Below, piece after piece: positions 17,916 to 23,126 of a stretch of 25,655 bases of DNA. The stretch is taken from the IMG/VR virus record IMGVR_UViG_3300001097_000035, positions 6,756-32,410 of that record. One strand, 5' to 3'. Position 1 is the stretch's first letter. Each line of letters begins with the position of its first letter. The notes beneath the pieces are model-generated. The model saw only the letters and a program-made list of their open reading frames with translations. It made no database searches and had not been told where the DNA came from. This DNA comes from a virus. Both the position numbers and the translations under genes were made by a program.

Positions 17916-20075
17916 TTACTCTTGGGCTTGCTCGTTATCTTGCCTTTCATTTGCTTGTTCCCCTATTTTTGACTTGTTTCCCATTTCTTGCATGTGACTG
18001 CTAAGCTTTGTCACTGCTTCAACTGCTGTCCTAGCGTTTTCGCTAGCAACCTTTTCTTGTTGCAGCGCACGATCAAGATCAGCGCCCTGAACCTTGCTCA
18101 TCACTTCCAAAAATTTAATATCAATTTCTTTGTTTTTAATAGCTTCATTGGATGCAACCTTAGCTGCTTCGATGCTCGCCTCTAGCCTGCTTATTTGTGC
18201 CTCAGAATCAATTTTCTTGTTCTCAGTTTGTATCTGCGCTTTCGCTATTTGCTCAGGTGTTACTTGATTTTTAGCTTGCTCAGCAGCTTGTGCGGCCTTC
18301 TCTTTCTGTTGCTCCATCCAGTTCTGCGCTAAGAATCTTAGCTTGTCTATGCCTTTGATGTCGATGTTTTCCAGCAACACTTCTAGACCTTCTGACTCCA
18401 TAAAACTTCTAAAACTTTCGCTGATATCCATTAAATGCTCTAGCGTTTTCATCGCAATTTGTTTCTGCACAGCGAAGTTAACGCCCGGCTCTATAGATAC
18501 ATCTAAAGCGGAAACGTCATAATCGAATTTAATGTTTTTACCAGCCTTGTCATTAATTTCGTAGTAGTCGCGCTTACCGTTTGGCAGCATCACAGGAATT
18601 GAACGGGGAGTGACGTAATATTTAGGCAGCAAGTTTAGGTAAATCTCTCCGCACCGCGCCCAACCATTAATGAAGCCCATCGTGTAAGGCATGGCTGCAG
18701 CGTTCGAATGCATTGCGCCCTGCATCATTGCAACACCTGATAGCTCACCGTTGGTGTCTCCTTGAGCCGCATCGTATGAGCCTAGAATAACCTGCACAGT
18801 TTGATCTGCCATCTGAAAAGTAGATGTAATTTCAGGTGGAATCGGTGGCCTAATAATTTCGCGTGGCGGATTAAGTGGCACGTTTACATCACCATCTTTA
18901 TATTGCTGATAAAGCACGATTGAAGCTTTCTGCGGCTCAGTGTAAGCAAGCTTATAATCTTCATTGTCCGGTATGCCTTCAACCGGAGCCGACCACTTGT
19001 GCTGCATCATGTTTTCGATTTCATTACAAAGCGTCTGACCTGCCAGATTTTTCATTCTTTGCGTATCACGCGCATGATAAACGTACGGTCTAACTACTTG
19101 TTCAGCTTGACTGTTGTTGTCTGACCGAACAACTACGCTGTTACCGTCAAAAAACACCAATGGCAACATAGAGAAATTTGTATCTGTATGCTCAATTATT
19201 TTACTGCCAGTAATAATGTATTTATCTATCGTCTCGATATCAGTAATACGACTTTTCATAATCGCGGGCGGCTGCTCAAGTATTCCAGCCTGTTCCCATT
19301 TTTCCAGAAAAGCTTGATAATGTTTTTCAGTTACAGAATGCCCGTTAGCAAGCTTTAAAATTTTTACCTTTTTTATTTTCTTTTTAAAATACTCACCGAA
19401 TAAAATGATGTCTTCTTTTTGATTTCTATAAGTCCAATTGAATTGATCTATGCTAGTGCTTCGCGAAAATTTTGCGTCTTTAAGTATATCACTGCCGTAC
19501 ATTTCTTCTGCTTCGCCAACACTCTTAGGAAAAAGTTCACAGCAAAACCTGCCATCGCCTTTATGTGATTTTCTTGCGAGAGGATCAAATACTGTTAGTG
19601 TCGGATCGAAAACGCGTTCTACATAAATTTTCTGGTCAAAACTCATGGGGTCACCGTAGTCAGTGTAAATTTTCGCAACGCTAAAACCGCCTGATAAGAT
19701 ATCTCTGTAAAGATGATAACTCAGCGCGTTCTTATCACATGACACAAATGCCGCTTTTAAATGCGCTTCAACTAGCTCGATAACACGTGGGTCTATCAGC
19801 TTAACGCCTTCTTTTGACCTGACAGAAAATGCTGGATCCATTTTTGAAAACTCACCGCATAATCTACTGATGTAAGATTCTAAAATGTTATATTCCATAC
19901 TTGGTCGGTCAAGTTCGTTATTCACTGCAATGTCCGCACCGTCCAAGCTGCTTTTAAAAACAAAGCGGATAAAATCGTTATACATCTTGTAGTTATTTTT
20001 AAAGTATAGATAACCGTGTTCTATATCGTCTTTTATGTTATCAAAGCTGTCTTTTTCGCTTTTTTTAACGTACAT
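17916..20075 (-). CDS. Portal protein, P22 gp1-like, 719 aa
   Basis: Length is nearly that of P22 portal (725 aa). Diagnostic stretches include NELDRPSMEYNILESYISRL, KNALSYHLYRDILSGGFSVA, KIYTDYGDPMSFDQKIYVER and FDPTLTVFDPLARKSHKGDG (about 52-180). Also present are YHARDTQRMKNLAGQTLCNE and MADQTVQVILGSYDAAQGDT, followed by NGELSGVAMMQGAMHSNAAA (about 338-465). The last 150 residues are a long Ala/Gln/Glu coiled coil (EQAKNQVTPEQIAKAQIQTE, SRLEASIEAAKVASNEAIKN), as in the P22 barrel helix. The ATG overlaps the end of the terminase frame by 11 bases, with GAGGG upstream. It forms the dodecameric ring for DNA entry and exit. Confidence 0.88.
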   Translation of the reverse strand: MYVKKSEKDSFDNIKDDIEHGYLYFKNNYKMYNDFIRFVFKSSLDGADIAVNNELDRPSMEYNILESYISRLCGEFSKMDPAFSVRSKEGVKLIDPRVIELVEAHLKAAFVSCDKNALSYHLYRDILSGGFSVAKIYTDYGDPMSFDQKIYVERVFDPTLTVFDPLARKSHKGDGRFCCELFPKSVGEAEEMYGSDILKDAKFSRSTSIDQFNWTYRNQKEDIILFGEYFKKKIKKVKILKLANGHSVTEKHYQAFLEKWEQAGILEQPPAIMKSRITDIETIDKYIITGSKIIEHTDTNFSMLPLVFFDGNSVVVRSDNNSQAEQVVRPYVYHARDTQRMKNLAGQTLCNEIENMMQHKWSAPVEGIPDNEDYKLAYTEPQKASIVLYQQYKDGDVNVPLNPPREIIRPPIPPEITSTFQMADQTVQVILGSYDAAQGDTNGELSGVAMMQGAMHSNAAAMPYTMGFINGWARCGEIYLNLLPKYYVTPRSIPVMLPNGKRDYYEINDKAGKNIKFDYDVSALDVSIEPGVNFAVQKQIAMKTLEHLMDISESFRSFMESEGLEVLLENIDIKGIDKLRFLAQNWMEQQKEKAAQAAEQAKNQVTPEQIAKAQIQTENKKIDSEAQISRLEASIEAAKVASNEAIKNKEIDIKFLEVMSKVQGADLDRALQQEKVASENARTAVEAVTKLSSHMQEMGNKSKIGEQANERQDNEQAQE

Positions 20076-22599
20076 TTCGGTTTGCCCTCGCTGCGTGTTG
20101 CCGTCTCATTTGTTGGCCTATGGCAGACATAACGTCATCACCTGCGGATTTGGTTTTGCTGTTAAACTTGTATAGTGACTTATCTATTAACCCTATCTTA
20201 ATTCCATCGTAAAGTGTATCGCAATTCTGTAATAAAATTCCGTTACAATAATATACGCCGTAATTTTCAACGGTGAGACTATAAACTTGCTTTATGTCGT
20301 AATGATCTGGTGCTTGATTGACACGACTTACCGCAAGTTTTTCTATTTCTAGATTGTGGATGTTGTTTTTTCGCAGTGAAATCATTTCCACAGACAATAC
20401 ATTTTCCCGCAAAATTTCCAAGTCTCGATCGATATTTGTTGGTGTTGCACTGCAAACTGCATGTTTCTGCAATTTTCCCGGGCTTAGTAAATAAAAATTT
20501 TTTATTGCAAATAATACAACTTGCTTCACGCTCGATAAATATTTTCGGCAAGCATTTGATAATATTTTCCCTATGCCATTTCCTGCCTTCTTCACTTCTG
20601 TGCCATTTCTTGGCAGCTTCTTGAGCTTTCCGAAGATTAGCAAGACCGCTTTCTGACTTTGCATAATCAATTTTTTGTTGGCGATGTTCCTGCATGTGTT
20701 GCTTAAACGAAATGCACTCCAAATTGTCAAAGTCGTTATTAAAATGGTTGCTGTCTTTGTGATGAATAACAAAGCCTTTAGGAACTGCCTTGCCCGAATG
20801 AAATTCCCAAATTGCAACATGAAGTCCTTTCGCAAACTTCCTCGATGAATTTGTTGTTGACTGGCTAATATAATATCGCTTCTTACTGACAAGTGAGTAT
20901 TTGATTCCGTTAAACACAATAGTTTTAAGTATTTCCACCTTAACAACCCTTTCAGTGATAAATGATCTATTTTAGCATCATCGTTCAGTGTATCAAGGGG
21001 AATAAACCCGTCAGGGGTATAAACCTTATGATTTGGCGTGCTTGTTAAGCCGAATTTGCTTATCACTTTATGAAATCCAGTCGAGCCACAAGCTGACACA
21101 TAGCCAATGCCAAAAGGCGTAATAACTTTATCGCCTATTCTTATATCCTCAACATTTTTATTGCCGTAGATGGTCGCTATCTTGCTTCCAGCTATATGAC
21201 AAATATCATCGTGACGATGTGTATTATTAGCTGTAATCTTTTCCATGTGAGTCTTGCAGTTAGCAACGTGCCTTCCGCCCCGCGTAAATGTCACTCGCTT
21301 GCTAGCGATGTACGGCGTCATTTCTATGTATCTAGCAGTCTTACTGCCTGACGCCGCTGTTCTCTCAACTTCTTTAATTTTAATGCCTTGAATTTTATTT
21401 AAGGCAGCAATTAAAGTTACACCTGTTGATTTTTTTTCAATTGCCGCAACAAATGGCGGCACAGTATGACGACAACACTCCGTCCAAAAGTCTAAAACGA
21501 AATCCTCTAGGTCTTTAGCATCAATCCATCCTTCGATACAGTCTATCCAATGGAGTCCTAGCTCGCCCGTTTTTTTTCCGAAAGCTTCGATCTCATAGAT
21601 GCCGAAAAAGCTGATAGCTGTGGGGTCATTGTAGTTTTTATCGGTTTCTGCCGAATCAACGGTTAAAAATGTATGCAGCATCTTTGGTTCTTCTTCCAGT
21701 TCCAAAAACCACTCTGAGCTAAAAAGGCCACCTCCCGCAGGGGATGGGATTTGCTGATACTGTGACGCAAAAACATACGGTGACTTGTCTTGCAGCGCTA
21801 ACAACTTCTCAACGGGGTCTATCTCGGGATAAAGAGCATTACCAGCATCGTCCATCGCTTTTAAAACTAAAGATTCCCACGTACAAATATCATTATCTTC
21901 AATTAAAAAATCTGATAAGTCAGCTTCGTGAACCCGCTGTCCAACGTTAATTATTGGCACGTTAATGCCGCGAGGCCGCTGTCTGATTGTCTCAACGTAA
22001 TTATCTATTACCTTTTTCCTCTGCGTGTCTGAATGCGCCTCATCTACTTTGTGCGCATCGTCTATAACAACACCGCCTGAAAATCGGTCAAGGCCGGGCA
22101 AGCCTGCATCTTGGCCTGTAATCGCACCCCCTGAACCAAAAGCCTTGATCTTTCCGCCTGCTGATGTCTCAAAAGCGTCCTTGGCTCTGCTTTCTTTTTT
22201 GAGCTCAACATCGAATAAATACCGATACATTTTTGAATCGATAATAGTCTTAATAAAAGCTGTGTGTTTGACGGCAAGGTCAAACGAGTAGCTTATATAA
22301 AGAAAGTTAGAATCAGGATACTCAGCGATGCACCATGCTATCCACATGCAAAGAATAGTTGATTTACCATATCCCGGCGGAACGTTGATATTAAGTCGGT
22401 GGTTCGGTATCTCTAAGCGCTTAAGTGCTGTTAACGCTCTACATAGCGTGATGTGATGCGATTCTCGGCCAATGGGCTTGCTGATAATGAAATCGCGTGA
22501 TGTTATATGCTTAAAAAAATATTTGATGAATAAAATAAGGGAGCCTTTTAGCTCAGATGCCGTTATTTCTTTCTCAATCATTTCAATTCTATTTAGCAT
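20065..22599 (-). CDS. Terminase large subunit interrupted by an intein (844-aa precursor, 518 aa after splicing)
   Basis: The ATPase half has a Walker A motif, NVPPGYGKST (residues 72-81), and a Walker B-like VVIDDAH (177-183). The RNase H-like nuclease half has the first Asp in TVDSAETDKNYNDPTA (D315), a likely Glu in AIEKKSTG (E388), and the final Asp pair in HRHDDI (D464, D465). An intein (C467-N792) follows directly, and the extein resumes CDTLYDGIKIGLIDKSLY. Without the intein, the 518-residue protein is a normal podoviral TerL length. The ATG overlaps the small-subunit stop by one base (TAATG). The product cuts concatemers and drives DNA through the portal. Nuclease activity should require splicing because the Asp motif is split from its C-terminal helix. 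Residues about 554-774 are the overprinted shadow of an HNH gene. Confidence 0.9.
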   Translation of the reverse strand: MLNRIEMIEKEITASELKGSLILFIKYFFKHITSRDFIISKPIGRESHHITLCRALTALKRLEIPNHRLNINVPPGYGKSTILCMWIAWCIAEYPDSNFLYISYSFDLAVKHTAFIKTIIDSKMYRYLFDVELKKESRAKDAFETSAGGKIKAFGSGGAITGQDAGLPGLDRFSGGVVIDDAHKVDEAHSDTQRKKVIDNYVETIRQRPRGINVPIINVGQRVHEADLSDFLIEDNDICTWESLVLKAMDDAGNALYPEIDPVEKLLALQDKSPYVFASQYQQIPSPAGGGLFSSEWFLELEEEPKMLHTFLTVDSAETDKNYNDPTAISFFGIYEIEAFGKKTGELGLHWIDCIEGWIDAKDLEDFVLDFWTECCRHTVPPFVAAIEKKSTGVTLIAALNKIQGIKIKEVERTAASGSKTARYIEMTPYIASKRVTFTRGGRHVANCKTHMEKITANNTHRHDDICHIAGSKIATIYGNKNVEDIRIGDKVITPFGIGYVSACGSTGFHKVISKFGLTSTPNHKVYTPDGFIPLDTLNDDAKIDHLSLKGLLRWKYLKLLCLTESNTHLSVRSDIILASQQQIHRGSLRKDFMLQFGNFIRARQFLKALLFITKTATILITTLTIWSAFRLSNTCRNIANKKLIMQSQKAVLLIFGKLKKLPRNGTEVKKAGNGIGKILSNACRKYLSSVKQVVLFAIKNFYLLSPGKLQKHAVCSATPTNIDRDLEILRENVLSVEMISLRKNNIHNLEIEKLAVSRVNQAPDHYDIKQVYSLTVENYGVYYCNGILLQNCDTLYDGIKIGLIDKSLYKFNSKTKSAGDDVMSAIGQQMRRQHAARANRNVR
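20224..21201 (-). mobile_element. Intein in terminase large subunit, 326 aa
   Basis: Block A is CHIAGSKIATIYGN followed by VEDIRIGDKV (first residue Cys467). Block B is GLTSTPNHKVYT with the TxxH motif (T521, H524). Blocks F and G are QVYSLTVENYGVYYCNGILL then QN, followed by Cys793 as the +1 residue. The usual block F His and the penultimate His of block G are replaced (Gly and Gln), which some natural inteins tolerate. The splicing parts add up to roughly 120 residues (467-555 and 763-792). The 200 residues between them show no endonuclease in this frame; an HNH gene lies there in another frame. Junctions were set by Cys1, Asn-Cys and the continuity of the terminase Asp motif. Confidence 0.85.
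20279..20938 (-). CDS. HNH homing endonuclease overprinted in the -1 frame of the intein, 219 aa
   Basis: Translation starts at GTG 20938 with AAAGGG at 20947-20952, eight bases away. The frame is closed upstream by TAA at 20972-20974 and ends TAG at 20279-20281. Residues 38-74 hold an HNH core of the type AIWEFHSGKAVPKGFVIHHK followed by DSNHFNNDFDNLE: H59, H60, D62, N64, N68, N72. A basic helical linker (about 80-130) precedes two zinc clusters, C141/C144/C160/C164 and C180/C183/C202/C206, probably for DNA binding. It would cut intein-less terminase alleles to spread the intein. The whole gene lies inside the terminase-intein frame, and its last about 50 bases also encode intein block F. 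Either an independent start or -1 frameshifting could express it. Confidence 0.85.
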   Translation of the reverse strand: MEILKTIVFNGIKYSLVSKKRYYISQSTTNSSRKFAKGLHVAIWEFHSGKAVPKGFVIHHKDSNHFNNDFDNLECISFKQHMQEHRQQKIDYAKSESGLANLRKAQEAAKKWHRSEEGRKWHRENIIKCLPKIFIEREASCIICNKKFLFTKPGKIAETCSLQCNTNKYRSRLGNFAGKCIVCGNDFTAKKQHPQSRNRKTCGKSCQSSTRSLRHKASL

Positions 22600-23126
22600 T
22601 AATACTCTTTTTTATTTTGTTCAATTATTTCTTGTCGAAGTTCTTTCATCTCTGCAATAAGTTCGGCATTTTGACTCTCAAGGTTTTCAACTCTTCGAGC
22701 ATCACCATAAATTTTTGGCGCTAATTTCGAAGCATACCATTTTCTCGTATCAACTCTTAAGCGTGATCTTTGTATAACGTCAGAGTCGGTTTTAACAAGA
22801 CCCTCATCATCGATATAGGTATCATTAAACCCGTCATCGGCTATATCAATAATTTCTTCTGCGAGCAATTCAGCTTGTTGGGCTTTGGCTTTTGCATAGT
22901 TCTCAGCAAATTTTTGATGACGATAACGCCACTTATAAATAGTATCTTGTGACGGCATCCATGCTTTATGGATCAAGCAAAGTTTGTTAGTACCTAAATT
23001 GCTTGTTGCAACAACCTCGCAAATTTTGTCTGCAAGTTTTGTATTGTAAATTGTTGGCGATCCAACTTTTCTTTTAGCTTTTGGTTTGTTTTTTGGTGGC
23101 TCTTTTTTCTTTTTCTTTTCTGCCAT
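22599..23126 (-). CDS. Terminase small subunit, Sf6/gp3-type, 175 aa
   Basis: A perfect AGGAGG lies eight bases before ATG 23126, the strongest ribosome site in the window. A very basic N-terminus (AEKKKKKEPPKNKPKAKRKV) leads into an HTH-like DNA-binding region (GSPTIYNTKLADKICEVVAT, WMPSQDTIYKWRYRHQKFAE). Next is the family signature QQAELLAEEIIDIADDG followed by RSRLRVDTRKWYASKLAPKI and YGD, known from Sf6-type small terminases. A short C-terminal coiled coil (ESQNAELIAEMKELRQEIIE) would support oligomerisation. It recognises the packaging site and recruits TerL. Its TAA overlaps the TerL ATG, so the two subunits are translationally coupled. Confidence 0.88.
   Translation of the reverse strand: MAEKKKKKEPPKNKPKAKRKVGSPTIYNTKLADKICEVVATSNLGTNKLCLIHKAWMPSQDTIYKWRYRHQKFAENYAKAKAQQAELLAEEIIDIADDGFNDTYIDDEGLVKTDSDVIQRSRLRVDTRKWYASKLAPKIYGDARRVENLESQNAELIAEMKELRQEIIEQNKKEY

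Follow-up and report, generated by a model that had tools for sequence, protein, structure and literature searches.

Introduction

Within the gene for the large terminase subunit (TerL) of a virus, an intein and a complete HNH endonuclease gene occupy the same nucleotides in two different reading frames. This locus raises the question of whether the open intein frame is a matter of chance or of sequence error, or whether the two genes form a mobile intein that carries its endonuclease as a separate gene, and which of the overlapping frames is then selected as protein. The DNA analysed here (the window) is a stretch of 25,655 nucleotides and part of a 32,410-bp IMG/VR virus record.

The terminase locus

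On the minus strand of the window terL follows a TerS-like gene and is itself followed by a portal-like one, the two neighbours being putative and named by position and sequence. The features of the locus are given in Table 1. TerL residues 9-466 match the terminase large subunit family phrog_38 (E 1.6e-75), and across the intein junction the proteins of intein-free relatives align straight through. Close relatives of the window's own TerL with an empty site were not found; the nearest extein relative (59%) is itself intein-bearing. The nested region has exactly the same sequence in a second IMG/VR record (L002), so that an indel in a single assembly is unlikely. At this point it has to be noted that the second record is not fully independent and may share its sampling site with the first.

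Two side observations belong to the sequence itself. Two further PHROG families, phrog_30251 and phrog_35162, have matches in the intein frame over TerL residues 599-796 and hence across the overlap. The function of phrog_35162 is unknown, and this family may have been assembled from translations of the overlap frame. Positions 1111-1631 of the window are of low complexity. Both strands carry long ORFs there, rich in Ser on the plus strand and with Arg-Pro repeats on the minus strand, and the stretch looks like a simple repeat, not a gene.

Table 1. Features of the nested terL locus, in window coordinates
Feature	Position	Strand	Remarks
TerL precursor ORF	20065..22599	(-)	844 aa; open through intein and HNH region; phrog_38 match
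N-extein (TerL residues 1-466)	21202..22599	(-)	ends at nuclease motif HRHDDI
Intein, TerL residues 467-792 (Cys1 ... Gln-Asn)	20224..21201	(-)	motifs; HINT fold
N-terminal splicing half	20941..21201	(-)	block A Cys1; block B T-x-x-H = intein T55/H58; pLDDT ~97 for residues 1-70
AAAGGG, possible weak Shine-Dalgarno	20947..20952	(-)	8 nt before HNH GTG; weak evidence alone
HNH homing endonuclease gene	20279..20938	(-)	219 aa, GTG start, TAG stop, offset +2 (= -1) to TerL
C-terminal splicing segment after HNH stop	20224..20277	(-)	rest of block F, block G, terminal Asn792; pLDDT ~96 for residues 301-326
C-extein (TerL residues 793-844)	20068..20223	(-)	Cys793 = +1 nucleophile

Intein motifs and predicted fold

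The intein comprises 326 residues, which leaves 518 of the 844 residues for the predicted spliced TerL, a length the earlier note on this DNA had also given and which holds as a computed value only. A class 1 intein is recognised by Cys or Ser at position 1 together with the T-x-x-H of block B, and by a C-terminal Asn that precedes Cys, Ser or Thr. The window intein satisfies both criteria: Cys467 is present, T55 and H58 are invariant in 48 aligned inteins, and Asn792 is followed by Cys793. Of 87 inteins, 80 have Cys as the +1 residue and the other 7 have Ser. The criterion of a penultimate His fails, the window intein having Gln at this position; among the 87 inteins His is found in 56, Ser in 24 and other residues in 7. 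Non-His penultimate residues occur in natural inteins, so this criterion is not decisive, and a penultimate Gln instead of His can slow splicing. The halves of a split intein would lie in two ORFs, and this does not apply to the window with its continuous ORF of 844 codons.

The criterion of a HINT fold is met as well. The best structural match of the AlphaFold model is the gp41-1 intein (Z 17.9, 112 residues, 1.8 A), and the RecA and DnaB inteins are also matched, with Z of about 17-18 for these and gp41-1. Between the two confidently modelled ends (Table 1), pLDDT is mostly 43-83; judged by the model, the confident splicing fold comes from the two intein ends only. A search of the intein against plasmids gave no match.

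The nested HNH gene

The HNH ORF of 220 codons overlaps roughly two thirds of the intein (TerL residues 554-774), its place being behind the N-terminal splicing half and ahead of block F. In a canonical bifunctional intein the endonuclease stands in the intein frame, a criterion which the window fails by the offset of its HNH gene. The earlier note, made from the sequence alone, had described a complete HNH gene in the -1 frame, with GTG start and its own stop, inside a continuous TerL intein, and both ORFs are confirmed at the positions in Table 1. The residues it had named (H59, H60, N68 and two zinc clusters) are among those invariant across the nested homologues, namely H40, H59, H60, N67, N68, N72, H81, C141, C144, C160 and C164, and with the HNH motif and the zinc-binding Cys clusters the motif criterion for an HNH homing endonuclease is fulfilled. 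The protein matches Pfam HNH_3 (E 2.4e-13), and its AlphaFold model folds at pLDDT 92. The described overlap of the HNH 3' end with block F is likewise found: the TAG stop falls inside the Tyr-Ser codons (TATAGT).

The AAAGGG that had been taken as the Shine-Dalgarno sequence of the gene is present, but it is weak as evidence, for a match of at least 4 nt is also found at 29% of control starts. Across loci, matches of at least 5 nt occur at 23% of the HNH starts vs 8% of controls. The support from Shine-Dalgarno sequences is modest overall and weak for the HNH of the window. As start contexts are mixed, with Shine-Dalgarno sequences enriched and not universal, weak initiation or translational coupling is likely at many loci including this one.

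Distribution and anatomy of related loci

The first homologues with an identical layout were L003 (49% TerL identity), L004, L005, L007, L008 and the phages Highwayman, TJE1 and LS06. A search of viral contigs and one-per-species genomes with the HNH alignment yielded 127 loci, most of which, together with the earlier matches, make up a classified set of 118. In 89 of these 118 a long ORF is open across the HNH gene; 88 remain when L095 is dropped, which passes the open-frame filter without an intein motif. The frame relation is conserved among the collected homologues, 81 of the 88 nested intein loci showing that of the window and seven the other one. The remaining classified loci are nine split inteins and about 20 HNH genes elsewhere, and no in-frame HNH fusion was detected among the 118. 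The nested loci belong to phages and prophages of bacteria and to one archaeal MAG (L099), to which a haloarchaeal plasmid is added: in Halobacterium sp. GSL-19 (L148 960-3272) a terminase-like gene with a nested HNH is annotated solely as 'Hint domain-containing protein'. When the N-exteins of 69 hosts were scanned, the families matched were almost throughout terminase families.

The HNH start mostly lies 78-110 codons past intein Cys1, beyond block B, and the stop 4-29 codons ahead of the last Asn, at a distance of 15 in 21 loci and of 19 in 26 (47 of 87). The stops are built from block F codons, as in Val-Glu gtTGAa, Tyr-Asp taTGAt, Tyr-Asn taTAAc and, in the window, Tyr-Ser taTAGt. With its start after block B and its stop in block F, the HNH gene sits between the two splicing halves, where an intein normally holds its endonuclease. 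The annotations of TJE1, Highwayman and LS06 list TerL alone at the nested locus; annotation pipelines overlook nested HNH genes.

A second layout was observed in L004 and L152, with a different HNH subtype, the intein at another TerL site and the other offset. In L004 (4803-8363) one TerL gene contains two inteins, each with an out-of-frame HNH of different subtype and different offset; the first of these two types is also present in L152, at the same site. As a further observation, un-nested HNH relatives often stand beside terL, terS or portal genes; those of L012, L013, L016, L149 and L150 are placed between terL and portal or upstream of terS. It looks as if the HNH family targets the terminase region.

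Avoidance of stop codons in the intein frame

An intein frame left open by luck, or an HNH gene that truly is in frame and was displaced by an assembly indel, would be the simplest explanation of the overlap. In the window alone, with the HNH protein fixed, 20,000 synonymous shuffles gave a mean of 3.7 intein-frame stops and P(0)=0.003, and with the gene's own codon usage 7.0 stops were expected and none of 1000 resamples was stop-free. A chance open frame is accordingly unlikely, as the earlier note had argued. A single gene may nevertheless be open by chance, as is exemplified by TJE1 with a resampled P(0) of 0.147. The argument is decided by the whole set: in 15,657 overlapped codons of 82 loci, these being the 81 inteins in the frame relation of the window and the doubtful L095, not one intein-frame stop is seen vs 204 expected by synonymous shuffle and 358 by own codon usage.

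The same test on the unused third frame gave 1606 stops (1508-1650 expected), and the un-nested HNH relatives contain 204 (183-207 expected). No stop was found in the seven loci with the other frame relation, where 73-106 were expected, nor in the HNH of the second layout in L004, where 17 were expected. A Met directly before Ile, Lys, Met, Asn or Thr makes a stop in the +1 frame unavoidable; such dipeptides occur 25 times in 28 un-nested genes and not once in the 82 loci. Together with the identical second record and the same frame relation in the published genomes of Highwayman, TJE1 and LS06, these multi-locus sequence data appear to rule out chance or an indel, a reading that we regard as already refuted. 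That selection keeps the intein frame open, as had been proposed, is supported by the 88 loci and the un-nested controls.

Constraint on the two frames

With the intein frame at HNH+1, position 3 of an HNH codon is position 2 of an intein codon. For pairs at 60-98% HNH identity, the differences at intein positions 1, 2 and 3 amount to 0.224, 0.470 and 0.275 in the overlap and to 0.325, 0.267 and 0.515 in the upstream part of the intein that adjoins it. Intein position 2 is thus fastest in the overlap and position 3 upstream, which identifies the HNH frame as the selected protein. Judging from these substitutions, the overlapped intein-frame peptide behaves as a spacer that would only have to stay open, without clear purifying selection beyond the absence of stops. 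The fourfold-site identity is slightly higher in nested than in un-nested HNHs (0.309 vs 0.272; 0.347 vs 0.287), and this excess leaves room for a small, weak additional constraint.

The same excess could be cited for true dual coding, that is, for a functional overlapped peptide selected at the amino-acid level, and so could the PHROG matches of the intein frame that extend through the overlap. Such matches are, however, expected from HNH conservation alone, and the fast intein position 2 as well as the low AlphaFold confidence in the overlapped stretch speak against it, so that we give dual coding a low probability. The peptide alone found no match in a tblastn search against phages. A free-standing gene 'overprinted on the splicing protein', in the words of the earlier note, is correct as to the nested overlap but overstated as to the protein, for what is overprinted is a spacer.

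Split relatives and signs of mobility

Relatives with a broken intein frame, which had been named as a case that would refute the nested reading, do exist in nine loci (L049, L054, L070, L096, L105, L108, L109, L111 and L118), but in these the intein is divided between two ORFs. TerL-N and intein-N end at or near the HNH start, while intein-C and TerL-C form a second ORF, whose own ribosome-binding site and start are clearest in L054, L108 and L118 (at least three of the nine). It is possible that split inteins around an HNH are an intermediate or an end state beside the continuous nested form; the HNH tree, which is weakly supported, requires several changes between the states.

In Acinetobacter phage Highwayman (L009), intein and HNH form an exact insert of 981 bp compared with the empty TerL of Acba_21 (L147), and without it the Highwayman TerL has the length of the Acba_21 protein (434 aa). 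The flanks are 98.8% identical, with 15 differences in 1302 bases. All 15 lie in a stretch of 176 nt around the junction, and none of 200,000 random placements clusters as tightly. Among the differences is a Leu to Cys change at the +1 residue needed after the intein. This pattern, seen in the sequences of two phages, bears signs of homing with co-conversion and may reflect a recent jump; its direction is inferred and no activity assay stands behind it. The signature comes from a relative and not from the phage of the window, and a comparison of empty and occupied sites alone gives no direction. The pair of Highwayman and Acba_21 makes homing directly testable.

Proposed mechanism and alternative explanations

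Considering the observed anatomy, its conservation, the stop avoidance and the constrained frame together with the predicted fold and the empty site with clustered differences in a relative, the locus is very probably a mobile phage terminase intein with a complete out-of-frame endonuclease gene at the usual insertion position, for which no expression, splicing or cleavage data are available. In the mechanism we propose, terL would be translated from its own start into a precursor of 844 aa. Its two intein ends would together form the HINT splicing domain, from which the overlapped stretch of about 220 residues would loop out, and splicing would release the TerL of 518 aa. Internal initiation at the HNH start would deliver a separate HNH protein of 219 aa, which would cut intein-free terL, and repair would copy intein and HNH into the cut gene. 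Splicing, separate HNH translation and target cleavage are inferred here. An HNH gene that keeps its own stop would truncate TerL if placed in frame and must therefore be out of frame. Its codons would be selected against stops in the intein frame, as otherwise the intein becomes split.

A programmed frameshift inside the intein could also give access to the HNH frame, the product being a fusion of TerL-N, intein-N and HNH and not a free HNH. Frameshifts to -1 are the commoner kind, and -1 is where the HNH frame lies relative to the intein at most loci, which would suit this idea. In the window, however, an in-frame TAA 12 codons upstream of the HNH start leaves only a short stretch for the shift, and the sole slippery-like heptamer found there lies upstream of that TAA and out of phase. 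As the HNHs moreover possess start codons with a family-like N-terminus and seven loci use the other frame relation, frameshifting seems very unlikely. Still less can be said for RNA splicing, by which the HNH would reside in a group I or II intron of terL and the open frame would be irrelevant. Phage introns often contain HNH genes, and introns also occur in terminase genes, the terL of ICP1 being spliced (PMC10448857). However, stop avoidance spans the whole HNH, and the protein-splicing motifs are clear, with the terminal Asn and the +1 Cys/Ser invariant; we consider an intron extremely improbable. An Rfam scan of 19900-22700 with E up to 5 revealed no group I or II intron family. A sub-threshold lncRNA match in Rfam was rejected as chance.

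The HNH might rather be a domesticated packaging nuclease that works with TerL and is kept in the intein for co-expression, without being an active homing enzyme. Un-nested relatives adjoin terL, terS or portal genes, some phage HNH nucleases assist terminase, and an HNH near the terminase has been noted in packaging for HK97 (PMC10448857). Against this stand the patchy distribution with more than one TerL site and the exact insertion with junction-clustered differences in Highwayman, and we judge domestication to be unlikely. Under the preferred reading as a mobile intein, the loci show a free-standing homing gene that entered an intein with its own start and stop kept, and they offer an observable route between continuous and split inteins. 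They also provide a large natural set of long same-strand overlaps in which one frame is selected as protein and the other only avoids stops, a clean test for models of overlapping genes.

Comparison with known systems

I-HmuI is an intron-encoded endonuclease. Its structure (1u3e) is the closest profile match of the window HNH (E 0.0021) and the HNH core is shared; unlike a full counterpart, however, the match is restricted to residues 40-107, and a Foldseek search of the HNH model against the PDB gave no significant whole-fold match. Fractured genes, or split inteins with an intervening homing endonuclease, were reportedly described by Dassa et al. in 2009. They resemble the present system in the separate endonuclease gene between intein halves, a layout that the nine split relatives have, and the predicted fold of the window intein is nearest to gp41-1. 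The window intein differs in being continuous, with the endonuclease overlapping it in another frame. With canonical large inteins, which contain LAGLIDADG or HNH endonucleases in frame at a conserved insertion site (PMC6801210), it shares the HINT fold and the insertion between blocks B and F, whereas its endonuclease is encoded by a gene of its own in another frame and is not a domain.

An out-of-frame HNH inside a true intein was not described in the full-text literature searched, which has partial coverage and does not include a 2025 bioRxiv preprint on actinobacteriophage inteins of 'non-canonical architecture' (10.1101/2025.01.02.630785). As far as its title and its citation for overlapping frames in PMC11855218 allow a judgement, related arrangements are suggested there, and the preprint may be prior art for the nested HNH. 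The notion of a 'distinct class of mobile intein' put forward in the earlier note is fair, but out-of-frame HNH insertions as such have already been published with the ShiLan domain. We lean slightly towards the view that the loci form a widespread, unrecognised class of mobile inteins in terminases of bacterial and archaeal phages, with a nested endonuclease in another frame, a splicing frame selected only against stops, multiple origins, in view of the two frame relations and of no fewer than two HNH subtypes, and interconversion with split inteins.

The closest published precedent is the ShiLan domain, which together with the Pacc40 insertion represents HNH genes hidden in the DNA methylase genes of phages (Arsenault, Gosselin, Gogarten 2025, PMC11855218). 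There, too, the HNH is out of frame (in ShiLan in the third frame, with a GTG start) in an insertion that is open in the host frame, and the patchy distribution of ShiLan, indicating homing, is a further likeness. In contrast, no splicing domain was found in ShiLan and the insert is thought to be retained in the protein (PMC11855218), whereas the HNH of the window lies within a recognisable intein with a clear HINT domain, in an essential gene and in an arrangement that recurs at about ninety loci.
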